64,000 bases of DNA from Thermophilibacter mediterraneus (GTDB lineage: Bacteria; Actinomycetota; Coriobacteriia; Coriobacteriales; Atopobiaceae): positions 412,382 to 476,381 of the forward strand of contig NZ_FPKO01000008.1 of the NCBI RefSeq assembly GCF_900119385.1, read 5' to 3'. The translations under genes and the position numbers were made by a program. The notes below the pieces were generated by a model that worked only from the letters and a program-made list of their open reading frames with translations, was not told the origin of the DNA and made no database searches. This document shows, piece after piece, positions 47,992 to 62,651 of this stretch; position 1 is the first letter of the stretch, and each line of letters opens with the position of its first letter.

Positions 47992-48888
47992 CTACGCCTC
48001 CAGCTCGCGGCGGGCGAGCTCGAGGCAGCCCATGATGCCCTGGTCGCCGCCGAGCGAGGCGGGCACGATGTAGGAGTCCATGTCCGCCAGCTCGTCGGTC
48101 TTGAGGTAGCCCGCGATGTTCGCGGCGACCTTCTCGCGCACGAGCGGGAAGAGCTGCTCCTGCTTCATGACGCCGCCGCCCAGGATGATGCGCTGCGGCG
48201 AGTAGCACATGACGTAGCCGGCGAGCGCCTGCGCGAGGTAGTCGCTCTCGAGGTCCCAGACCTCCGGACGGTCGGCGAGCTCGACGGCCGGGGCGCCCCA
48301 GTGCTTCTGGATCGCGGGGCCGGCGGCGAGGCCCTCGAGGCAGTTGTCGTGGAACGGGCAGGAGCTCGGCGCCTGGTCGTCGGCGCGGCGTGTCAGCAGC
48401 ACGTGGCCGGCCTCGGGGTGCAGCATGCCGTGCAGCAGCCGACCGTCGATCATGACGCCGGCGCCCACGCCGGTGCCCACGGTGAGGTAGACCACCACGT
48501 CGAGGCCGCGCGAGGAGCCAAAGGTGACCTCGCCCAGGCACGCCACGTTGACGTCGGTGTCGTAGCCCACCGCGACGCCGGTCCCGCGCATCATCTCGCC
48601 GCGGAAGTCGTAGCCCCTCCAGCCCGGCTTGGGCGTGTCGAGGACGTGGCCGAAGGTCGCGGAGCGCGGGTTCACGCCCGTCGGGCCGAAGGCGCCCACG
48701 CCCACGGCGGCGACGCCGCGCTCCTTGAACCAGGCCGCCATGCGGGGCACCACGTCCTCGGGGGCGGTGGTGGGCGTCTCGAAGCGCTCGACGACCGTTC
48801 CGTCGGCGTAGCCCGTCGCAAGCACCATCTTGGTGCCGCCCGCCTCGAGCGCGCCGAGCAGCGCGCCCCTGTCCTTCTCGTCAGCCAT
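47992..48888 (-). CDS. ROK family fructokinase
   Basis: Phosphorylates fructose (or mannose) to the 6-phosphate. 298 residues: ATP loop GALEAGGTKMV, then VGVGAFGPTGVNP, LTVGTGVGAGVMIDG, and the ROK zinc site HPEAGHVLL to CPFHDNCLEGLAAGPAI, which is the fructokinase (ScrK/YdhR) form. The ATG at 48886-48888 has AGGAGAAG upstream. The 3' stump of an alpha-mannosidase gene lies 11 bases upstream on the same strand, so it was probably the second gene of a mannoside operon. Confidence 0.9.
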   Translation of the reverse strand: MADEKDRGALLGALEAGGTKMVLATGYADGTVVERFETPTTAPEDVVPRMAAWFKERGVAAVGVGAFGPTGVNPRSATFGHVLDTPKPGWRGYDFRGEMMRGTGVAVGYDTDVNVACLGEVTFGSSRGLDVVVYLTVGTGVGAGVMIDGRLLHGMLHPEAGHVLLTRRADDQAPSSCPFHDNCLEGLAAGPAIQKHWGAPAVELADRPEVWDLESDYLAQALAGYVMCYSPQRIILGGGVMKQEQLFPLVREKVAANIAGYLKTDELADMDSYIVPASLGGDQGIMGCLELARRELEA

Positions 48889-48899
48889 TGCTCTTCTCC

Positions 48900-49115
48900 T
48901 TACGCCGTGATCTCAACGTACACCGAGACGAACTTGCAGTGACCGATGGGGTCGACGGTGATCGTGGCGCCGTCGTGGGCGACGGGGGCGCTGTCGCGCT
49001 CGAGCAGGTCGACGTAGCTCGCGTGCTCGATGGTGCCCGGGACGCGGATCGTGGCTCCCGCAGCCTCATGGTCAAGACCATTGTAGAGCCTCATGACCAT
49101 GCCGGGGCGCAGCTC
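48900..49115 (-). pseudogene. 3' remnant of a GH38 alpha-mannosidase gene
   Basis: About 70 codons remain, reading LRPGMVMRLYNGLDHEAAG, ATIRVPGTIEHASYVDLLE and finally GHCKFVSVYVEITA, then stop. This is the C-terminal beta-domain pattern of GH38 enzymes (RLYN..., ...DLLE..., K-f-x-S-v-x-v). No catalytic domain exists upstream: the frame runs into sequence that is coding on the other strand. The break lies at about 49110-49130, where a divergent gene stump begins. Confidence 0.65.
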
Positions 49116-49520
49116 GTCGTCGACGAGCCGGTCGAGAAGGACGAGCTGCTTCGGCGCATGTGCGACCAGCTCGTGCGCGAGGGGGTCGCGGACGAGGGCT
49201 TCCTCGCGTCGACGCTCGAGCGCGAGCGGGTCGCCGACACGAGCCTGAACGAGGTCTTCGCCATCCCCCACACCATGCGCCCCGACGCGCGGCGCACGAT
49301 GGTGAGCGCCGCGATCCTCAAGCGCCCGGTGCGCTGGAGCGAGCGGTGCGACACCGTGCAGATCGTGTTTCTGCTCGCCGTGCGCCCCGGGGACCGGGTC
49401 GAGATGGAGCACCTCTACGACCTGCTCGTGAGGATCGTCGAGGACCACCACCTCCAGCAGGAGCTCATCGGGGTCGCGAGCTACGCGCAGTTCCTCGAGG
49501 TGCTCTCCGGCGCCGTGTAG
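49116..49520 (+). pseudogene. 3' remnant of a LicR/MtlR-type PTS activator: EIIA-2 domain
   Basis: About 125 codons match the EIIA (fructose/mannitol type) domain that ends BglG-family activators: KDELLRRMCDQLVREG, TLERERVADTSLNEVFAIPH with the phospho-His, and a W-x-x-x-x-D-x-V-Q-I-V-F-L-L-A-V-R block. The DNA-binding domain and PRDs are absent. An ATG at 49158 could in principle express a free EIIA of 120 residues, but its ribosome site is poor. It abuts the mannosidase stump back to back. Confidence 0.65.
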
Positions 49521-49604
49521 CGCGACGGGCGTCGGGCGCGGCCGAGGCCGGCTCCCCCTCCCCCGCCCCCTTGCGATACACTCTCTCCGAAAGAGGGGGG
49601 CAGC

Positions 49605-50585
49605 ATGGACATCAACCAGATCGCCCAGATGGCGGGCGTCTCGCGCGCGACCGTCTCGCGCTACCTCAACGACGGGTACGTGAGCCAGGAGAAGCGAGCC
49701 GCCATCCGGCGCGTCATCGAGAAGACCGGGTACGTGCCGTCGCGCCAGGCGCAGGCGCTGCGCACCGGCAAGACCAACGTGGTCGGCGTCATCATCCCCA
49801 AGATCAACTCGGCCTCGGTGAGCCGCATGGTCGCGGGAATCACGCTCGTGCTCAACGACGTCGGCTACCGGGTGCTGCTCGCCAACACCGACAACGACGC
49901 CGCGCGCGAGGTGGAGTTCCTCCGGCTCTTCTCCGAGAAGAACCAGGTCGACGGCGTCATCCTCATCGCCACCGTGTTCACGCCGCAGCACGCCGACGCG
50001 GTCGCCGCGCTGCCGGTGCCCATCGTGGCGCTCGACCAGAACGTGCCCGGCCTCACCTGCGTCTACCAGGACGACCTCAACGCCCTGCGCGACGTGACCG
50101 CCGTCGCCCTGCGGTCGGCGCGCAGGCCCGCCTACATCGGCGTCCTCGAGGAGGACGTCTCCGCGGGCCAGATGCGCCGCCGCGGCTTCCTCGAGGCGTG
50201 CGCCGAACGCGGCGTGGAGGTGCCCGAGCGCGCGCTCACCGTCGCGGAGTTCACCGTGGACTCCGGCTACGAGCAGGCCGAGCGCCTGCTCGACGAGTAC
50301 CCGGAGCTCGACGCCATCGTCTGCGCCACGGACTCCATCGCCTACGGCGCGCTCACCTGCCTGCGCGAGTACGGGCGCAGCGTCCCCGGGGACGTCCAGG
50401 TGACCGGCGTCGGCGACGCGGAGATCTCGCAGATCGTGACGCCGACGCTCACCACGGTGCACCACCACTACAAGACCTCCGGCAGCGAGGCGGCGAAGAT
50501 GCTCGTTGGGCTCATGACCGGCGAGTCCGTCCCGCGCGAGGTCAAGATGGGCTACGAGGTCGTGGCGAGAAACTCCACGCGCTGA
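49605..50585 (+). CDS. scrR: LacI-family transcriptional regulator of the sucrose genes
   Basis: 326 residues: helix-turn-helix NQIAQMAGVSRATVSRYLND (4-23) with the hinge helix SRQAQALRTGKTNVVG, then a periplasmic-binding-like effector domain (VDGVILIATVFTP, ALDQNVPG, YIGVLEEDVSAG, DAIVCATDSIAYGAL). The layout and neighbours fit ScrR, which responds to fructose or its phosphates. The ATG at 49605 has an AAAGAGGGGGG ribosome site. Two LacI-type operators stand before the sucrose PTS gene 290 bases downstream and one before the fructokinase gene at 61698. Confidence 0.88.
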   Translation: MDINQIAQMAGVSRATVSRYLNDGYVSQEKRAAIRRVIEKTGYVPSRQAQALRTGKTNVVGVIIPKINSASVSRMVAGITLVLNDVGYRVLLANTDNDAAREVEFLRLFSEKNQVDGVILIATVFTPQHADAVAALPVPIVALDQNVPGLTCVYQDDLNALRDVTAVALRSARRPAYIGVLEEDVSAGQMRRRGFLEACAERGVEVPERALTVAEFTVDSGYEQAERLLDEYPELDAIVCATDSIAYGALTCLREYGRSVPGDVQVTGVGDAEISQIVTPTLTTVHHHYKTSGSEAAKMLVGLMTGESVPREVKMGYEVVARNSTR

Positions 50586-50601
50586 GTGCGGGCCGAATAC
50601 G

Positions 50602-50704
50602 CGTCGAGTGCGCGGTGAGCAGCGCGCACTCGACGTCATTCCTATCCGAACGGACAGAGATGCGGCCGAGTGCGCGCTCCCCGCTGGCGAGGAGCGCGCA
50701 CTCG
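50602..50704. repeat. Two CGAGTGCGC palindromes
   Basis: CGTCGAGTGCGC (50602-50613) with its complement at 50624-50635 around a 10-base centre; then CGAGTGCGCGCTCC (50667-50680) with its complement at 50691-50704 around another 10-base centre. Both lie in the 50586-50958 gap just past the regulator stop and share the CGAGTGCGC arm. They may terminate the regulator transcript or be a REP-type family. No T-runs follow. Confidence 0.7.
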
Positions 50705-50875
50705 ACGCGATTTCGCGCGGCGGCGCCAAGCTCGCGCCGGGCATGGCGGCCCGAGCCAGAGGTTCTTCTCGCCCGAGGGTCGCGTGACCCCTCGCTTCCC
50801 AACGGAGTGCCGTTCACCGAAACAATCATGCCGCTCACCAGTCAGCGTCGCCCTCGTCGCTTTGCCATCGTATTG

Positions 50876-50927
50876 TGAGAACGATTCCATATGGGAACGT
50901 TTTCACACCACAGTAGCAGGCTATCAT
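50876..50927 (+). promoter_or_regulatory. Sucrose PTS promoter with two LacI-type operators
   Basis: TGAGAACGATTCCA (50876-50889) and TGGGAACGTTTTCA (50892-50905) are near-palindromes centred on CG, 16 bp apart centre to centre, the usual form for LacI-family sites. The second overlaps the -35 (TTTTCA, 50900-50905), which pairs with TATCAT (50922-50927) at a 16-base spacing. Bound repressor should block polymerase. Confidence 0.75.
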
Positions 50928-50958
50928 GGAGGGGCGTGAAGAAGCGAAGGGAGCAGCA

Positions 50959-52930
50959 ATGGCACTCGACTACCGACAGGCCGCGCAAGAGATCCTGGAC
51001 GCGATAGGCGGGGCCGGGCAACGTGGTCTCCGCGGCGCACTGCGCGACGCGGCTGCGCCTCGTGCTCGCGGACGACTCGAAGGTGAACCAGGCTGCGGTG
51101 GACAACGCCACCGGCGCCAAGGGCAACTTCAAGGCGTCCGGACAACTGCAGGTCATCTACGGCACCGGCACGGTGAACAAGGTCTACGACGAGTTCATCG
51201 CGCTCGGGCACATCACCGCCGCCACCAAGGCGGAGGTCAAGGAGGCCGCCGCGCAGCAGCAGACCAACCCCTTCATGCGCGCCATCAAGCTCCTGGGCGA
51301 CGTCTTCGTGCCCATCATCCCGGCCATCGTGGCCTCGGGCCTGCTCCTGGGCATCATGAGCGCGCTCTCCTTCATGGACGCCAACGGCTTCATCACACTC
51401 GACACCAACAACGCCTGGTACCAGATCCTGAACCTCGTCTCCAACACGGCGTTCACGTTCCTTCAGATCCTCATCGGCTTCTCCGCCGCCAAGGCCTTCG
51501 GCGCCAACCCCTACCTCGGCGCCGTCATCGGCATGCTGCTCATCAACCCGGGCCTCCAGAACGCCAACACCGTGGCGACCGAGGGCGTGCAGCAGACCTA
51601 CGCCGTCATCCCCGGCGTCTACTCCATCGAGTGGACCGGCTACCAGGGTCACGTCATCCCCATCGTGATCGCGGCGGGCATCCTCGCCTTCGTCGAGAAG
51701 CGCCTCCACAAGGTGGTCCCCGAGGCCTTCGACCTCTTCGTGACGCCCCTCGTCTCGGTGGCCGTGACCGCCTACGTCACCATGCTCGCCGTCGGCCCCG
51801 TCTTCGTCTGGGCCGAGAACGCCATCCTCGGCGGCATCCAGTTCCTCATCACGCTGCCCCTGGGCATCGGCTCGCTCATCATGGGCGCCCTCTACGCCCC
51901 CACCGTGGTCACCGGCATCCACCAGATGTACACCACCATCGACCTCGGGCAGATCGCCGCCTACGGCGTGACCTACTGGCTGCCGCTCGCCTCCGCCGCC
52001 AACATCGGCCAGGCCGGCGCCGCGCTCGCCGTTGCCCTCAAGACCCGCGACGTCAAGATCCGCTCGCTCGCCCTCCCCTCCTCGCTCTCCGCGTTCATGG
52101 GCATCACCGAGCCCGCCATCTTCGGCGTGAACTTGCGCTTCTTCAAGCCCTTCGTCGCCGGCTGCATCGGCGGCGGCCTGGGCGCCATGTTCGCCTCCAT
52201 CGTGCAGCTCGGCGCCAACGGCACCGGCGTGACCGGCATCTTTGGCATCCTGCTCTGCCTCAACCAGCCGCTGCAGTACGTCATCATGTTCGCCATCGCC
52301 GGCGTCGTGGCCTTTGCAATCTCGTTCGTGCTCTACCGCGACCCCGAGCAGGCCGCCGCGGCGCCCGTCGCCGAGGCCTCCGTCAGCGCGCCTGCCGCCG
52401 ACGCCGAGAGCGCCGCGGTCCTCTCCGCCGCCGCTGCCGACGCCGCCGTGGCCGCGGTGACGGACGCCGCACCCGCGACGCGTGCCGAGACCCTCGTCTC
52501 GCCGCTCGCCGGCACCGCCATCAGGATGACCGAGGTTCCCGACCCCGTCTTCGCGAGCGAGGCCATGGGCACCGGCGCCGCCGTGCGCCCCACCGAGGGC
52601 AGGCTCTGCGCGCCGGCCGCGGGAACCGTCACCGTGCTCGCCGAGACCGGCCACGCGCTCGGCATGACCACCGACGCCGGTGCCGAGGTCCTCATGCACA
52701 TCGGCATCGACACCGTGACGCTCGAGGGCAGGCCGTTCACCGCGCACGTCAAGGTGGGCGACCACGTGAGCGTCGGGCAGCTGCTCATGGACATTGACCT
52801 CGACGCCATCCACGCCGCCGGGCTCGACCCCGTGACGCCCGTGATCGTCACCAACACGGACGCCTACGGCTCCGTGACCCCGCGCCTCGGCGCCGCGTGC
52901 CCCGGGGAGCCGCTCGTCGAGCTGGCGTAG
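50959..52930 (+). CDS. scrA: Sucrose-type PTS transporter EIIBCA, frameshifted near its 5' end
   Basis: Imports and phosphorylates sucrose. From 51023 the frame reads VVSAAHCATRLR (EIIB phospho-Cys), ten or so IIC helices (VFVPIIPAIVASGLLLGIM onward, with SAFMGITEPAIFGVNLRFF), an Ala-rich linker, and EIIA with phospho-His in AEVLMHIGIDTV. The true start is ATG 50959 (GGGAGCAGCA ribosome site), which gives MALDYRQAAQEILDAIGGAG and then leaves the frame. One extra G in the run at 51010-51018 explains it: removing a G restores GGAGNVVSAAHC. As written the ATG-initiated product is out of frame; a GTG at 51023 would lose the first 20 EIIB residues. Confidence 0.85.
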
Positions 52931-52974
52931 CAGACCGGGCGGCGGGTCCCGGGCGAGGCCCGCCGCAGGACGGG

Positions 52975-53085
52975 CGTGCGGGTTGCGGACGCTTTTGAGC
53001 ACCAGACCGTCCACAACTCGCACGCATTTCCACAACGTGCGGGTTGTGGACGCTTCCCCATCCCAGACCGTCCGCAACCCGCACG
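52975..53085. repeat. Palindromic 50-bp units, period 61 bp (array IV, two units)
   Basis: Units at 52975-53024 and 53036-53085 with the spacer CATTTCCACAA. Left arms CGTGCGGGTTGCGGACGC and CGTGCGGGTTGTGGACGC; centres TTTTGAGCACCAGA and TTCCCCATCCCAGA. It lies between scrA and the first GH32 gene, inside what should be one operon, so the units would be transcribed in the sucrose mRNA. Confidence 0.88.
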
Positions 53086-53170
53086 CACCCCGGCCTCGCC
53101 CGCGTCCCGCCCTCCTGCCGAGGGGGCAGCCCCGGCGGGGGCCGCCCCCTCCCCACCGATAGGAGATCCG

Positions 53171-54604
53171 ATGACCAACGCAGCAGCCCACCACGACCCC
53201 TGGAGAATGGGCTTCCACATCATGCCGCCCACCGGCTGGCTCAACGACCCCAACGGGCTCTGCCAGCTCGGCGGCACCTATCACGTGTTCTTCCAGTACA
53301 GCCCCGACTGGCCGGCCCCGCACGCGCCGCGCGGCTGGGGGCACTTCGTGAGCGACGACCTCACCCACTGGCGCGCCGTAGGCCGCGACTTTGCCATCGC
53401 CCCCGACACGCCCGACGAGGCCTCGGGTGCCTACTCCGGCTGCGCCGTGCCCGTGGAAGGCGGCGCGCGCCTCTACTACACCGGCAACGTCAAGGAGCCC
53501 GGTGACTTCGACTACATTACTGCTGGCCGGCGCGCCACGCAGATCCTCGTGGAGGCCACGGCAGACCCAACAGCCCCCGGCGGCCTTGCCCTGGGCGAGA
53601 AGGACGTGCTGCTGAGAAACGCTGACTACCCGGACTTCTGCACCTGCCACGTGCGCGACCCCAAGGTCTGGCACGAGGACGGCGCGTGGTGGATGATCCT
53701 GGGCGCGCGCGACCTCGATGACCACGGCCTCGCGCTCGTGCTGCGCTCGGAGGACGGCGTGGCCTGGGCAAACGCCGGGACCGTGCGCGCGACGGAGCCC
53801 CTCGGCTACATGTGGGAGTGCCCGGACCGCATCGAGCTCGGCGGCCGGGAGTGGCTCTCGGTCTGCCCACAGGGCATGCAGGACCGCCCTTGGGCCAACG
53901 GCATCCGCGACCAGGCGGGCTACCTGCCCCTTCCCGCCGGCGAGAAGCTCGGGCACGCGGGCGAGCTCTACCTCGACCCCGCGGGGTTCTGCCGCTGGGA
54001 CTGCGGCTTCGACTTCTACGCGCCGCAGACCTTCGTCGACGAGTCCGGCCGCACGGTCCTTCTCGCCTGGATGGGGCTCCCGGACGCCGGCTTCGAGAGC
54101 GCCCCGGACGGTCTGGGCTGGTGCCACTGCCTCACGGTCCCGCGCGAGGTCACGGCGGGCGCGGACGGGGCGCTGCTCCAGCGGCCCGTCTCCGAGCTCG
54201 AGGCGCTGCGCGGCGCGCGCCACGAGCTCGCGGGGGACGGGACGCTCGCGCTCGCGGAGCACCGGGCGGACGTCCTTCTCCCCAACGTGACGGGACCGGT
54301 CGAGCTCGCGCTCGACGGGGCGCTCCGCGTGGCGTGCGCCGACGGGCTGGTGCGCCTCGAGTTTCTCGACGAGCGCGTGGGCGCGGGCCGCACGGTCCGC
54401 AAGGCCGCCTGCGACGGCGTCTCGAGCCTGCGCATCCTCGTGGACAGCTCGGCCGTGGAGGTCTACGTCAACGACGGGCGGGTCGTGCTCTCGACCCGCT
54501 GGTTCCCCCGCTCCCCCGCCCTCACGCTCGAGGCGCGCGGCGCGTCACCGTGCCTTGTGTGGGAGATGGGCGACGGCATGAAGGGGTGCTACGAGCTTGT
54601 GTAA
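53171..54604 (+). CDS. scrB: GH32 sucrose-6-phosphate hydrolase
   Basis: Splits sucrose-6-phosphate into glucose-6-phosphate and fructose. 477 residues: the nucleophile block WLNDPNGLCQLGGTYHVFFQ, the transition-state stabiliser VRDPKVW, and the acid/base Glu in YMWECPDRIEL, followed by a C-terminal beta-sandwich (LRILVDSSAVEVYVNDG). No signal peptide, so it is cytosolic. The ATG at 53171 has AGGAGA upstream. It is the second gene of the sucrose operon, followed 37 bases later by another GH32. Confidence 0.92.
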   Translation: MTNAAAHHDPWRMGFHIMPPTGWLNDPNGLCQLGGTYHVFFQYSPDWPAPHAPRGWGHFVSDDLTHWRAVGRDFAIAPDTPDEASGAYSGCAVPVEGGARLYYTGNVKEPGDFDYITAGRRATQILVEATADPTAPGGLALGEKDVLLRNADYPDFCTCHVRDPKVWHEDGAWWMILGARDLDDHGLALVLRSEDGVAWANAGTVRATEPLGYMWECPDRIELGGREWLSVCPQGMQDRPWANGIRDQAGYLPLPAGEKLGHAGELYLDPAGFCRWDCGFDFYAPQTFVDESGRTVLLAWMGLPDAGFESAPDGLGWCHCLTVPREVTAGADGALLQRPVSELEALRGARHELAGDGTLALAEHRADVLLPNVTGPVELALDGALRVACADGLVRLEFLDERVGAGRTVRKAACDGVSSLRILVDSSAVEVYVNDGRVVLSTRWFPRSPALTLEARGASPCLVWEMGDGMKGCYELV

Positions 54605-54641
54605 CAATGGCGGGGCCCCCGACGTCTCCCGAGAGGAACCC

Positions 54642-56192
54642 ATGGCCACAGACCTCACGAACGCCCCACTGCCGGACGAGCCCGCCAACGGCTCGTTCGT
54701 CGCGCACGACGCCGCCCTCGAGCGCGCCGAGAGGGGCGTGGCCGCGCTCGCCGCCGCACGCTCCGACCGCTGGTACCCCACCTTCCACGTGGCCTCCCCG
54801 GGCGGCTGGATCAACGACCCCAACGGCCTCTGCTTCTTTGGGGGTCGCTGGCACGCCTTCTACCAGCTCCATCCCTTTGGCACCACGTGGGGCCCCATGC
54901 ACTGGGGCCACGCGTCGAGCGCCGACCTCGCGCACTGGCGCACCGAGCCCGTCGCCCTGGCGCCGAGCCTCGAGGCCGAGCGCGACGGCGTCTACTCGGG
55001 CTCCGCCGTCGTGGGCGACGACGGCGTGCTCAACGTGGTCTACACAGCCCACCGCTGGCGTGACGTGCGCGACGAGACCGCCGGGAACCTCGAGGTCCAG
55101 TGCCTCGCCACCTCGCGAGACGGCGTGCGCTTCGAGAAGCGCGGCGTGGTGATCGCCAACCCCGCGGGCCTGCGCGACTTCCGCGACCCCAAGGTCTGGC
55201 GCCAGGGCGACGCGTGGCTCGCGGTGGTGGGGCGGCGCGCGGCGGACGGCCGCGGCGAGATCGCGCTCTTCTCCTCCGAGGACCTGCGCGCCTGGAGCTA
55301 CGAGGGCGTGGTCTACCGCCACCCCGACCCGCGCGTCTTCATGCTCGAGTGCCCGGACCTCTTTGAGCTCGCCGCCCCGGACGGCGAGCGGCGCTGGGTG
55401 CTCTGCTTCTCGGCCATGGGCGCCCGGGCGCACGGCTACCGCAACCGCAACTTCAACAACGCCGGCTACCTGGTGGGCACGTGGCGTCCCGGCGCGACGT
55501 TCGAGCCGCAGACGGACTTCCTCCCGCTCGACTGGGGGCAGAACTTCTACGCCCCGCAGACCCTGGAGGCACCGGACGGCCGCCGCATCCTGATGGGGTG
55601 GATGAGCCCCAACGGCGGCCCCCTGCCGACCCAGCAGGACGGCTGGTGCGGGCAGCTCACGGTGCCGCGCGAGCTCTCGCTCGCCGGGGACGGGACGCTC
55701 AGGCAGGAGCCGGCCCGCGAGCTCGAGACGCTCTGGGGGCCGGCGCGCGAGCTCGGCCCGATCGAGCTCGCCGCAAACGAGGAGCTTGAGGTCGAGAAGG
55801 ACGCCGGCGTCGCGTGCGTCGAGGCCACGCTCGACCTCGCCGCCTCGACGGCGGAGCGCGGCGGCCTCAAGCTGCACGCCGCCGCGGACGGCGGGTACAC
55901 GTACGTGGCCTACGACGACCAGGCGCGCCGCGTGGTCCTCGACCGGCAGGCCGCGCGCGTGGGCGAGCGCGGCTATCGCGCGGCCCCCGTCCCCGCGAGC
56001 GCGCTCGCCACCGGCGAGCTCAGGCTGCGCGTCCTTCTCGACCGTGGGTCGGTCGAGGTCTTCGCGGGCGAGGGCGAGCAGGTGCTGAGCGTCTACAGCC
56101 TCCCCGGCGCGGGCCCGCGCGCCATCCGCCTCGTGGCCGAGGGCGGCGCGCTGCGGGTGAGCCGCCTGGTCGTCCGTCGCCCGCGGGCGTAG
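54642..56192 (+). CDS. Second GH32 beta-fructosidase
   Basis: 516 residues, about 40 more than its neighbour owing to an N-terminal extension. GGWINDPNGLCFFGGRWHAF, FRDPKVWRQ and VFMLECPDLFEL carry the three catalytic acids. The C-terminal beta-sandwich includes LRVLLDRGSVEVFAGEGEQV. No signal peptide. Similarity to the first GH32 is limited to the motifs, so this is not a recent duplication. It may handle a different fructoside (for example phosphorylated fructo-oligosaccharide or another sucrose derivative), which is inference. The ATG at 54642 has GAGAGGAAC upstream. Confidence 0.9.
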   Translation: MATDLTNAPLPDEPANGSFVAHDAALERAERGVAALAAARSDRWYPTFHVASPGGWINDPNGLCFFGGRWHAFYQLHPFGTTWGPMHWGHASSADLAHWRTEPVALAPSLEAERDGVYSGSAVVGDDGVLNVVYTAHRWRDVRDETAGNLEVQCLATSRDGVRFEKRGVVIANPAGLRDFRDPKVWRQGDAWLAVVGRRAADGRGEIALFSSEDLRAWSYEGVVYRHPDPRVFMLECPDLFELAAPDGERRWVLCFSAMGARAHGYRNRNFNNAGYLVGTWRPGATFEPQTDFLPLDWGQNFYAPQTLEAPDGRRILMGWMSPNGGPLPTQQDGWCGQLTVPRELSLAGDGTLRQEPARELETLWGPARELGPIELAANEELEVEKDAGVACVEATLDLAASTAERGGLKLHAAADGGYTYVAYDDQARRVVLDRQAARVGERGYRAAPVPASALATGELRLRVLLDRGSVEVFAGEGEQVLSVYSLPGAGPRAIRLVAEGGALRVSRLVVRRPRA

Positions 56193-56209
56193 GCCGGGGG
56201 CGGGCCCGG

Positions 56210-56742
56210 GGCGCCACGTCGATCCAGCGCGACCCGCTCGGCAGGAAGGTGAACCACTCCCCCAGCTCGCGCTCGAGCACGTAGGCCATCTCGGTGATGA
56301 GCTCGGGCTGGTCGCAGCAGACGGCCGCCTTGATGATGTTGACCGTGGGCGAGGGCGGGTCAAAGACGCGCGTGGCCGAGACGAGGTCCTTGTCGAGCTC
56401 GCTGATGTAGGAGCTGAGGTCGTCGATCAGGTAGGTGTTGTCGTCCTCGTAGACGGCGAGGTGCAGGCAGTCGAACATCGCGCACGTCTCAAAGAGCCGC
56501 ATGACGGAGAGCGACGAGAAGACCTCGCGGTCCAGCAGCTGCCCGTCCGCAAAGACCTGCGTCCCGAGCGAGGCGACGTAGCTGATCTCGTCGGCGACGG
56601 GCTCGAGAAACCAGCGCAGCGTGTCGTAGCGCCTCCCCGAGCTCGCCACGAAGTGGACCCCGCGCTCCCGCAGGGCGCGGATGAGCTCAAGAGATGCGGC
56701 GGGCAGAGACTCGCTTTTTTCCTCGGCTTTTCTTGACGGCAT
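56210..56742 (-). pseudogene. Cof-type HAD hydrolase, truncated at both ends
   Basis: About 175 codons match the middle of a Cof-type HAD phosphatase: LELIRALRERGVHFVASSGR (motif II), then YVASLGTQVFADGQLLDREV, and the cap up to FTFLPSGSRWIDVAP. The N-terminal D-x-D-G-T nucleophile motif and the C-terminal K and G-D-x-x-N-D motifs are missing. The frame runs on into the 3' end of the second GH32 gene. The ATG at 56742 has no spaced ribosome site. It is best read as a gene fragment. Confidence 0.7.
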
Positions 56743-56768
56743 CTCCCCTGTTGTAGTATCTTGTCCCT
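56733..56768 (+). promoter_or_regulatory. Possible promoter of the EamA leader
   Basis: TTGACG (56733-56738) and TATCTT (56757-56762) with an 18-base spacer lie just before the attenuator-like leader at 56779-56847. It overlaps the 5' end of the antisense HAD fragment. Confidence 0.4.
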
Positions 56769-56810
56769 GTCTAAAAACGCGTGGACTTTTCTGGGCGCTA
56801 GCACTTTTTC

Positions 56811-56847
56811 GCCACGCAACCGAGCAGTCGGTTGCGTGGCTTTTTTT
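56811..56847 (+). terminator. Perfect intrinsic terminator upstream of the EamA gene (attenuator candidate)
   Basis: GCCACGCAACCGA (56811-56823), loop GCAG, TCGGTTGCGTGGC (56828-56840), then seven T. It is the strongest intrinsic terminator in the window. A second segment, GCGTGG at 56779-56784, can pair with CCACGC (56812-56817) and would break the terminator stem. It either attenuates the EamA gene 115 bases downstream or ends the long sucrose transcript. Confidence 0.85.
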
Positions 56848-56964
56848 GTCTCGGCAGCAGGTGCCGCAAGCACCGCCAGAAGACCGGACGAGCCCCACCT
56901 TCCGACTGCAGGGAACAGACGCACGAGACGTGCGTCTGCGAGACAGCAGACGGAAGGGGGCATG

Positions 56965-57924
56965 ATGGCAGGAACGGACATAATCAAGCAGCAGGGCGCG
57001 GGGCAGGCCAAGGCGGCGCTCCAGGTCTTTGCGGGCGGCGCCTGCTACGGCGCCATGGCCACGACCTACAAGCTCGCCTACGCCGCGGGCTTCACCTCGG
57101 CGCAGGTGGTGGCGAGCCAGGCGTGGTTCGGCTGCCTCTTCTTCGCCCTCGCCACGCTCGCGGGGCGCGCGCTCGGGCACCGCTGGCAGCACGTGGGCTG
57201 GAGGCTCGCGCTCAAGCTCATGGGCCTGGGAGCCCTCACCTGCCTCACCTCGATCCTCTACTGCTACGCCATGAGCGTGCTGCCCGCCCCGGTGGCGCTC
57301 ACGCTGCTCTTCCAGTTCACGTGGCTCGGGCTCGTGTGGCAGACCGTCATGACGCGCCGGCCGCCCAAGGCCGTCCAAGTCGTCTCCGCCCTGGTCATCG
57401 TCTTCGGGACGGTCTTCGCGAGCGGCGTCTACAAGACCGGCATCGCCGGGTACGACCCCGTGGCCCTGCTCTGCGCGCTGGGGGCGGCCGTGTCCTGCTC
57501 CCTCTTCGTCACCCTCTCCGGCAAGGTCGAGGCCCCCTGCTCGTCCGAGCAGCGCGGCGTCATCGTGTGCGCGGGCTCCGTGGTCATGTCGCTCACGGTC
57601 TGCCCCGACTACCTGGTCTCGGGCGTCCTCGTCCAGGGCATCCTGCCCTTTGCCGTCATCGCCGGGTTCTTCGGCCTGCTCTGCCCGGTCCTGCTCTTCG
57701 GCATGGGCTCCCCGCACCTGCCCGCGGGCCTCTCCACCGTCATGGCCGCCGCGGAGCTCCCCGCCGGCCTGCTCATCGCCATGATCGTCCTCGGCGAGCC
57801 GCTCGGCGTCGTCGAGTGGCTGGGCGTCGCCATCATCCTCGCCGGCGTGTGCCTGGCGCAGCTGCCCTCCCTGCTCGGCGGCAGGGCGGCCCGTCGCGCC
57901 GCCGCGGGCCAGGCAGCCAGCTAG
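56965..57924 (+). CDS. EamA/DMT family transporter
   Basis: 319 residues with ten hydrophobic helices arranged as two EamA repeats (GGACYGAMATTYKLAYAAGF begins the first; DPVALLCALGAAVSCSLFV the second; ending LGEPLGVVEWLGVAIILAGV). DMT-family members export or import metabolites such as amino acids, nucleosides or drugs; the substrate is not evident. Two ATGs adjoin; the second (56965) stands seven bases from GGAAGG and is chosen. It is a single gene behind a terminator-bearing leader. Confidence 0.88.
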   Translation: MAGTDIIKQQGAGQAKAALQVFAGGACYGAMATTYKLAYAAGFTSAQVVASQAWFGCLFFALATLAGRALGHRWQHVGWRLALKLMGLGALTCLTSILYCYAMSVLPAPVALTLLFQFTWLGLVWQTVMTRRPPKAVQVVSALVIVFGTVFASGVYKTGIAGYDPVALLCALGAAVSCSLFVTLSGKVEAPCSSEQRGVIVCAGSVVMSLTVCPDYLVSGVLVQGILPFAVIAGFFGLLCPVLLFGMGSPHLPAGLSTVMAAAELPAGLLIAMIVLGEPLGVVEWLGVAIILAGVCLAQLPSLLGGRAARRAAAGQAAS

Positions 57925-59481
<1,557 letters not shown>

Positions 59482-59512
59482 CCGCCCGGGCAACATCCCT
59501 AAGGAGAGACTC

Positions 59513-61435
59513 ATGGCAGGAAAGTACGACGATCTGGCCAGGTCCATACTCGAGAACGTGGGCGGCGCCGAGAACGTCACGAGCGTCGCGCACTGCATTA
59601 CGCGCGTGCGCTTCAAGCTCAAGGACGAGTCGCGCGCCAGCACGCCCAAGATCGAGGCCCTGAAGGGCGTCATCCAGGTCATCCAGGCCAACGGCCAGTA
59701 CCAGGTGGTCGTGGGCAACATCGTGGAGGACGTCTACGACGCGGTCCTGGAGGCCGGCGGGCTTGCGGGCGGCGGCAACGCCGCCGAGGACGAGCCTGAG
59801 GGCGAGAAGACCGTGGCGTCGGTCATCATCGACCTCATCTCGGGCATCTTCCAGCCCATCCTGGGACCGCTCGCCGCCGCGGGCATCATGAAGGGGCTTC
59901 TCGCCCTCTTCACCTACTTCGTCCCGGACTTTGCCAACGACGGCCTCTACACGCTGCTCTACACCGTGGCGGACGGCTTCTTCTACTTCCTCCCCGTCGC
60001 CCTGGCGTTCAGCGCCGCGCGCAAGTTCCGCATGAACGAGTTCACCGGCGTGGCGATAGGCGTGGCGCTCGTCTACCCGACGATGGTCGCCCTGACCTCG
60101 GGCGAGGTCCTCGGCAGCATCGACCTCGGCGTCGCCGGCACGTTCTCGTGGTACGCGACCGCCCTCGGGATCCCCATCATCATGCCCGCCTCGGGCTACG
60201 CGAGCTCGGTGATTCCCGTCCTTCTCATGGTGTGGTTCGGCTCGCTCGTGGAGCGCTGGCTCAAGGGCTGGATGCCGGCGGCGCTCAAGATGTTCCTCGT
60301 CCCGCTCGCCACGATGACGGTCTCCATCGTCCTGGGCTACCTCGTCATCGGCCCGGTGGCCACCCTCATCACCAACCTGCTGAGCGCGGCGTTCTCGTTC
60401 ATCTTCCAGCTCCCCGTGGTGGGCGCGGTCCTGGGCAGCGCCCTGGTCGGCGGGCTCTGGATGTGCCTCGTCATCTTTGGCTTCCACTGGAGCCTCATCC
60501 CCATCTCCATCATGAACCTGAACACCCTCGGCCACGACTACGTGCTCGCCGCCACCATCGGGCACGGGTTCGCGCTCGGCGCGGTCATCTTCGCCATGTA
60601 CCTCAGGAACAGGGACGAGCGCTTCCGCGGCATCGCCCTCCCCGCGATGATCTCCGCGTTCTTCTTCGGCGTCACCGAGCCGGGCATCTACGGCGTCGCC
60701 CTCCCCAACAAGCGCGCGTTCGTCGTGGCGTGCCTGAGCTCCGCCGTGGGCGGCGCCATCGTGGGGATGACGGGCGCCCTCATGTACATCTCGGGCGGGC
60801 TCGGCGTCTTCAACCTGCTCAACTTCATCGACGAGACCCCCGGCGGCGCCGGGATCTCCCACATGGTCTTCGCGATCGTCGCCTCGCTCGTCTCGGCGGT
60901 CCTGGCCTTCGTCATCGAGTTCGTCACCTACCGGCCTGATGCCGAGGAGGGCGCGCCCGAGCTCGCGCCCGTCCAGACCGAGTACGAGCGCGGCACCGTC
61001 TGCTCCCCCGTCACCGGCTCCGTGGTCCAGCTCTCCGAGACCGCCGACCCCGTGTTCTCCTCCGGGGCGATGGGCGCCGGCATCGCCGTGAGCCCCGCCG
61101 AGGAGACGGTCTTCTCGCCGGTCTCCGGCACCGTGCTCTCCGCCATGCCGCACGCCGTGGGCATCCTCGCCGACGACGGCTCCGAGGTACTCGTGCACGT
61201 GGGCATCGACACGGTGGAGATGGCCGGTGACGGCCTGACCTGCCACGTCCAGCAGGACGCCCGCGTGACGGCGGGAGACCCCATCGTGACCTTCTCCAAG
61301 GCCAAGGTCGCCGCGGCGGGAAAGCAGGACACGGTCTTCGTCATCGTGACCAACACCGACGACTTCGCCTCCGTCCAGCCGCGCGAGGACGGTCCCGTCA
61401 CCGCCGGCAGCCCGATCATCCGCGTGACGCGCTAG
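59513..61435 (+). CDS. bglF: Beta-glucoside-type PTS transporter EIIBCA
   Basis: 640 residues. EIIB (1-85) with phospho-Cys in TSVAHCITRVRFKLKDE; EIIC (about 105-470) with ten or so helices and FFFGVTEPGIYGVALPNKR; EIIA (about 490-640) with VLVHVGIDTVEMAG, the phospho-His. Imports aryl or alkyl beta-glucosides and delivers them phosphorylated to the GH1 enzyme upstream. The ATG at 59513 has AAGGAGAG upstream. A large palindrome lies about 25 bases past the stop. Confidence 0.94.
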   Translation: MAGKYDDLARSILENVGGAENVTSVAHCITRVRFKLKDESRASTPKIEALKGVIQVIQANGQYQVVVGNIVEDVYDAVLEAGGLAGGGNAAEDEPEGEKTVASVIIDLISGIFQPILGPLAAAGIMKGLLALFTYFVPDFANDGLYTLLYTVADGFFYFLPVALAFSAARKFRMNEFTGVAIGVALVYPTMVALTSGEVLGSIDLGVAGTFSWYATALGIPIIMPASGYASSVIPVLLMVWFGSLVERWLKGWMPAALKMFLVPLATMTVSIVLGYLVIGPVATLITNLLSAAFSFIFQLPVVGAVLGSALVGGLWMCLVIFGFHWSLIPISIMNLNTLGHDYVLAATIGHGFALGAVIFAMYLRNRDERFRGIALPAMISAFFFGVTEPGIYGVALPNKRAFVVACLSSAVGGAIVGMTGALMYISGGLGVFNLLNFIDETPGGAGISHMVFAIVASLVSAVLAFVIEFVTYRPDAEEGAPELAPVQTEYERGTVCSPVTGSVVQLSETADPVFSSGAMGAGIAVSPAEETVFSPVSGTVLSAMPHAVGILADDGSEVLVHVGIDTVEMAGDGLTCHVQQDARVTAGDPIVTFSKAKVAAAGKQDTVFVIVTNTDDFASVQPREDGPVTAGSPIIRVTR

Positions 61436-61460
61436 CCTCCTGGCGCGTCCATCCCCTCCT

Positions 61461-61553
61461 GGCCCCGCCGGTCTCCCTGAACTGCCTCCCATCCCTCGGA
61501 CTTTACTTTTCAGTCCAAGAAATGGGAGGCAGTTCACCCCCACCGGCGGGGCC
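61461..61553. repeat. Long palindrome resembling paired IS3-type ends
   Basis: The outer arms GGCCCCGCCGGT / ACCGGCGGGGCC (61461-61472, 61542-61553) enclose an inner inverted repeat with TGAACTGCCTCCCAT (61478) and ATGGGAGGCAGTTCA (to 61536), plus GGACT/AGTCC close to the centre. TGAACTGCC-type sequences recall the terminal repeats of IS3/IS150-like elements, so this may be a minimal two-ended relic or a strong hairpin after the bgl operon. No transposase is present. Confidence 0.6.
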
Positions 61554-61654
61554 CTTCTGTGGGTGGCCCCGCCCCGGCGGCGCTCCCCGCGCCGCGCGCG
61601 CCGCCGTTGGCCGAGAAGGGCGCGAGGCAGGCGGCACGGGCTTTCCCGAGGGGC

Positions 61655-61678
61655 GATAATGGGCATGGAATCGATTCC
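61655..61678 (+). promoter_or_regulatory. Fructokinase promoter with LacI-type operator
   Basis: GATAAT (61655-61660) is a likely -10. Six bases later GGAATCGATTCC (61667-61678) is a perfect 12-bp palindrome at the expected transcription start. It resembles the two operators before scrA (TGRGAACGWTYYCA), so the same LacI-type regulator probably controls both. No good -35 is visible. Confidence 0.6.
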
Positions 61679-61697
61679 GCAAGCGAAAGGATCCAAC

Positions 61698-62651
61698 ATG
61701 TTCTCTGTCAGCGCACTGGGAGAGCTCCTCATCGACTTCACCGACGCCGGCACGTCCGAGGGCGGCCAGCAGCTGTTCGAGCGCAACGCCGGCGGCGCGC
61801 CCGCCAACGTGCTCGTGGCCCTGGAGAAGCTCGGCCACAAGACGGCGTTTCTCGGCAAGGTGGGCTGCGACATGCACGGCGAGTTCCTGCGCGCCACGCT
61901 CGAGGCCAACGGCATCGACACCACGGGCCTGATCAGCGACCCGGACGCCTTCACCACCCTCGCCTTCGTGGCCCTCTCCGCGGACGGCGAGCGCGAGTTC
62001 TCCTTCGCCCGCAAGCCCGGCGCGGACACCCGCATCGCCGCGGACGAGATCGCGCGCGACGTCATCGCCGACTCGCGCGTCTTCCACGTGGGCTCGCTCT
62101 CCCTCACCGACGAGCCCGCCCGCTCCGCCACCCTCGCCGCGCTCGCGTGCGCCCGCGAGGCCGGCTGCGTCCTCTCCTACGACCCCAACTACCGCGCGAA
62201 CCTCTGGCCCTCCGCCGAGGCCGCGATGGAGCAGATGCGCGCCGTGGTGCCGCAGATGGACCTCATGAAGCTCTCCGACGAGGAGTGCGAGCTGCTCACC
62301 GGCGAGAAGGACCCGGAGGCAGCGGCGGCCGCCCTCATGGCGCGCGGCCCCAAGGTCGTGGCCGTGACGCTCGGCGCGGGCGGCGCGTACGTGCGCTGCG
62401 CCGAGGGTAGCGCCGAGGTCCCGGGCTTCCCCGCGGACGCCGTGGACGCCACGGGCGCCGGCGACTCGTTCTGGGGCGGCTTCCTCGCGGGCTTCTGCGA
62501 GAGCGGCAGGCGGCCCGAGGAGGTCACGCTCGAGGACGCCGTCTCGTTCGCGCGGCTCGGCAACGCCGTGGCCTCCCTCTGCGTGCGCAAGCGCGGCGCC
62601 ATCCCGGCCATGCCGGAGCGCACCGACGTGGAGGCGCTGCTCGGGGAGTAG
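61698..62651 (+). CDS. scrK: PfkB-family fructokinase
   Basis: 317 residues: N-terminal VSALGELLIDFT, the sugar-binding NAGGAPANVLVALEKLG, and the C-terminal anion-hole block DAVDATGAGDSFWGGFLAGF with the catalytic Asp. It phosphorylates fructose released by GH32. The ATG at 61698 has GAAAGGAT upstream. It stands 9 kb from scrA but shares its type of operator. The window therefore encodes two unrelated fructokinases (this one and the ROK enzyme). Confidence 0.93.
   Translation: MFSVSALGELLIDFTDAGTSEGGQQLFERNAGGAPANVLVALEKLGHKTAFLGKVGCDMHGEFLRATLEANGIDTTGLISDPDAFTTLAFVALSADGEREFSFARKPGADTRIAADEIARDVIADSRVFHVGSLSLTDEPARSATLAALACAREAGCVLSYDPNYRANLWPSAEAAMEQMRAVVPQMDLMKLSDEECELLTGEKDPEAAAAALMARGPKVVAVTLGAGGAYVRCAEGSAEVPGFPADAVDATGAGDSFWGGFLAGFCESGRRPEEVTLEDAVSFARLGNAVASLCVRKRGAIPAMPERTDVEALLGE

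Follow-up and report, generated by a model that had tools for sequence, protein, structure and literature searches.

Remnants of two genes beside an intact ROK kinase

The window analysed here, a 64,000-nucleotide stretch of the Thermophilibacter mediterraneus genome, contains the 3' ends of two genes standing back to back on opposite strands, one derived from a GH38 alpha-mannosidase and the other from a LicR/ManR-type activator (Table 1). The region 48903-49124 (minus strand) matched the Pfam family Glyco_hydro38C2 (PF17677) at 22.1 bits against a cutoff of 22, and the region 49101-49517 (plus strand) matched PTS_EIIA_2 (PF00359) at 78.6 bits. In tblastn searches with the intact proteins of Candidatus Olsenella stercoravium, positions 49115-48909 corresponded to residues 852-920 of the 920-residue GH38 enzyme (64% identity) and positions 49104-49517 to residues 506-643 of the 643-residue LicR (77% identity), bearing out the arrangement of gene ends proposed in the original prediction. 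The GH38 catalytic N-terminal domain (PF01074), which in the intact enzyme spans residues 4-260, is gone from the window, where only the end of the C-terminal sandwich is left, so that this stub does not encode a GH38 alpha-mannosidase. Similarly, the LicR stub retains EIIA and has lost the HTH and both PRD domains, and is thus no longer a LicR/ManR-type activator; in intact relatives the protein combines HTH_11 with two PRDs and an EIIA_2 domain, as is typical of this class, whereas the EIIA-only end in the window cannot bind DNA. Neither stub should be annotated as a working gene.

Table 1. Coordinates of features at and around the locus (positions in the window)
Feature	Position	Strand	Evidence
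ROK sugar kinase (YdhR/ScrK-like fructokinase type), intact, last gene of former mannoside operon	47992..48888	-	PF00480, 165.8 bits
GH38 alpha-mannosidase 3' remnant, residues ~852-920 of 920 plus stop (~70 residues)	48900..49109	-	PF17677; tblastn
Probable deletion joint	49102..49117	.	base-by-base identity crossover against O. stercoravium GH38 and LicR genes
LicR/ManR-type activator 3' remnant, EIIA domain, residues ~506-643 of 643 (~138 residues)	49104..49520	+	PF00359; tblastn
LacI-family regulator, intact, of neighbouring sucrose/fructan cluster	49605..50585	+	PF00356/PF13377
PfkB-family fructokinase, synteny anchor	61659..62651	+	88% identical to O. stercoravium gene directly downstream of intact licR

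The gene next to the GH38 stub encodes a full-length ROK domain whose best PDB matches were 3ohr and 1xc3 (putative fructokinase; E about 1e-91), and this likeness to solved YdhR-type structures places it among the ROK fructokinases (YdhR/ScrK type). The NCBIfam ScrK model scored 227.7 against a cut-off of 400 and so does not settle the substrate, and the presence of the PfkB fructokinase means that ROK is not obviously the sole fructokinase. No other close homologue is present in the genome, the remaining ones being at most 33% identical. The protein is 84% identical to the O. stercoravium ROK encoded directly after GH38, and its position just past the GH38 stop is kept in the window, where that stop codon overlaps the ROK ribosome-binding region; this overlap is perhaps why the GH38 tail was spared. 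A consensus scan, which is weak for this phylum, found no minus-strand promoter site for ROK. This result and the operon position of the gene in the relative suggest that ROK has lost its promoter although the gene stays intact and conserved, in which case its expression would now depend on read-through or a cryptic promoter.

An intact operon in relatives and the extent of the loss

A DNA search of related genomes placed ROK and the GH38 end (window up to 49109) on one contig and the EIIA end (from 49158) on another, both from a single genome of the same genus (G024; contigs L025 and L026), of which one is sequence-identical to a Candidatus O. stercoravium record. In this organism ROK starts 15 bases after GH38, and licR is divergent from genes for EIIA, EIIB and the start of EIIC. 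The second contig starts inside EIIC, so the contig break falls within that gene, and the two contigs most likely abut because the same gene order is found on single contigs in more distant members of the order. There the layout, licR on one strand and EIIA, EIIB, EIIC and GH38 on the other, is intact in four cases (L073, L074, L075 and L079, the last contig ending within GH38), and Pfam confirmed the domains of the relatives' proteins, including HTH_11, two PRDs and EIIA in LicR. Five relatives thus have the intact divergent genes, four of them on a single contig and O. stercoravium split over two. The ancestral locus was divergent as originally predicted, but was not a simple gene pair, since three PTS genes stood between licR and GH38. 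The PTS-GH38 operon type is itself known. In the MngA/MngB alpha-mannosylglycerate system of Escherichia coli, PTS import is likewise combined with a GH38 enzyme, MngB, that acts on a phosphorylated mannoside (PMC2815779). However, E. coli has the repressor MngR instead of an activator of LicR type, each PTS subunit has its own gene in the relatives, and the window holds the GH38 tail only.

Measured from breakpoint to breakpoint, the segment missing from the window spans 6324-6475 bases in the four single-contig relatives and at least 6267 bases in O. stercoravium. It comprises the HTH and both PRDs of LicR, all of EIIA, EIIB and EIIC, and the catalytic and middle domains of GH38; the predicted loss of both 5' parts and the shared promoter therefore stands, with the three PTS genes to be added to it. 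In the window's own assembly (2.37 Mb, 99.61% complete) there was no second GH38 match, and neither the N-terminal part of LicR nor EIIC was found elsewhere, the only candidates being paralogues of 28% and 39% identity, respectively. Each stub corresponds to the end of a gene that relatives carry in intact form and in linkage with the other, and the intervening segment is absent from the remaining genome, both as expected of a pair of pseudogenes derived by deletion. These data make it very probable that the locus, which kept LicR residues 506-643, GH38 residues 852-920 and ROK, is such a pair, and the earlier proposal that a single deletion ran across a divergent mannoside operon has good support from the five intact relatives and the disappearance of the missing parts. 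A scar of one deletion of ~6.4 kb is the reading we hold with high confidence, although several smaller deletions with the same end point would look the same.

Comparison base by base with the O. stercoravium genes showed identity to GH38 dropping and identity to LicR climbing across approximately 49102-49117. Both parental genes agree with the window at most bases of 49102-49109 (CCGGGGCG in the window), giving a short common CCGG-GC stretch, and joining through short homology is plausible from this pattern. These genes are 73-81% identical to the window stubs, and because even the nearest relative differs by ~19-27% in stub DNA the exact breakpoint and the common bases are uncertain by several bases. 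The joint had been predicted at about 49110-49130; the crossover places it closer to 49102-49117. The CGAGAAGGAC word at 49133, proposed to mark it, lies at least 16 bases inside the LicR side and was rejected as a recombination word, because the window has 16 copies of it and within LicR it reads as Glu-Lys-Asp codons. The 16 sites (e.g. 6303, 14041 and 49133) compare with 0.32 expected from dinucleotide shuffles, an excess likely due to codon bias since the word can read as those codons.

The ancestor would have carried a divergent alpha-mannoside system, with a PTS-controlled activator of LicR/ManR type on one strand and, on the other, EIIA, EIIB and EIIC of a fructose-family PTS followed by GH38 and ROK. 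The mannosidase would cleave the imported phospho-mannoside and the ROK hexokinase would act on the freed sugar. The deletion would start inside licR, removing codons 1 to ~505, cross the promoter region and the three PTS genes, and enter GH38, removing codons 1 to ~851, the two 3' ends then being joined through a few common bases. We infer the single event, the short-homology joining and the loss of mannoside use from the sequence comparisons described above. The kind of event is known, this being ordinary gene decay that has left a well-documented deletion scar. The locus records the clean and probably recent disappearance of a PTS-linked alpha-mannoside system from one Olsenella and has no wider consequence.

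Alternative explanations and age of the stubs

A misassembly would likewise appear as an isolated joint between the tails of two genes, with two unrelated ends joined in error and the operon still present in the real genome. Both ends come from one operon in the expected orientation, however, the joint lies deep within a 594-kb contig, and no contig of the nearly complete assembly carries the missing parts, making assembly error unlikely and a chimera of this kind very improbable. The least probable of the alternatives is that an inversion or transposition, rather than a deletion, parted the 5' from the 3' parts. The flanks do differ from those of O. stercoravium, where the LacI gene lies on the other side of the locus, beside ROK instead of the LicR end, and where PfkB is ~260 bases from licR as opposed to 12 kb in the window. 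These differences fall outside the stubs, and deletion is favoured because the missing 5' parts are found nowhere else in the genome.

Selection might instead have maintained the short forms, the EIIA stub acting as a stand-alone EIIA that phosphorylates or senses a PTS partner, or as a phospho-relay or decoy protein kept after the rest of the regulator was lost. The nearest in-frame ATG ahead of the EIIA domain, at 49068, opens a 150-residue frame that runs over the whole domain, the histidine motif IPH (AIPHTMR) is intact, and the LicR stub has a pairwise omega of 0.24 against O. stercoravium, close to the 0.25-0.29 of the intact ROK, LacI and PfkB genes. Against this, the ATG lies antisense in the GH38 tail without a clear ribosome-binding site in the sequence, the consensus scan found no promoter-like site there, and the corresponding O. 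intestinalis tail is interrupted by an internal stop. An omega of this size is equally expected after a recent deletion, since nearly all divergence would then be older. On balance a retained EIIA protein, whether partner, relay or decoy, appears quite improbable.

Neither stub contains premature stops or frameshifts, or shows faster divergence. The GH38 stub gave an omega of 0.49. Bootstrap intervals are wide for both stubs and overlap across the genes compared, and no accelerated decay of the GH38 stub was found, intact copies varying just as much at their C-terminal end. Agreement with outgroups favoured the window at 6 sites and O. stercoravium at 6 in the GH38 stub, and at 5 versus 1 in the LicR stub. 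With no visible acceleration, either most divergence predates the deletion or constraint still acts on the stubs. The former is the likelier, because a tail without HTH and PRD domains cannot regulate and the ATG at 49068 lies in antisense GH38 sequence, and the deletion is therefore judged probably recent on sequence grounds. Young Salmonella pseudogenes likewise show little accelerated divergence (PMC2916853). The stubs resemble such young bacterial pseudogenes in that deletion is the main route of erosion and there is little or no acceleration, but differ in that one multi-gene deletion would have truncated two divergent genes at once, as opposed to a short deletion within a single gene.

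Decay in other genomes and flanking genes

Matches to GH38 at E <= 1e-8 were confined to this genome and O. stercoravium among the 31 genomes of the genus, and were present in 15 of 397 genomes across the order. In O. intestinalis KCTC 25379 a LicR EIIA tail of ~111 codons with an internal TAG was found (L071, 10001-10333), with no GH38 nearby. A genome from another family has a GH38 C-terminal tail of 127 residues flanked by aspS and a manA-like gene (L077, 8450-8833), and a further locus (L078) contains broken GH38 pieces. Including the window, at least three cases are remnants made of 3' ends. The comparable remnants in O. intestinalis and L077 suggest that such operons decayed repeatedly in the order, this mannoside PTS operon type having been lost more than once, with intact and decayed versions coexisting among relatives.

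The 12 kb between the LicR stub and PfkB (window 49520-61660) hold sucrose, GH32, GH1 and beta-glucoside PTS genes; in O. stercoravium this stretch is missing from the interval between licR and PfkB. This difference, together with the different position of the LacI gene, indicates movement of either the mannoside cluster or the genes around it. The LacI gene showed 84-94% DNA identity to LacI genes of most Olsenella genomes searched, over only ~95-150 bases at its start (49572-49700), which is the DNA-binding end. Within the region 50926-51060 a gene for a sucrose-type PTS has a good start at about 50960 (MALDYRQAAQEILDAIGGAG...), then undergoes an apparent one-base frame shift near GGGGCCGGGCAA (about 51005-51020) and continues in the frame of the ORF at 51023-52930; the shift is either genuine or the product of an indel introduced by sequencing within a G run.
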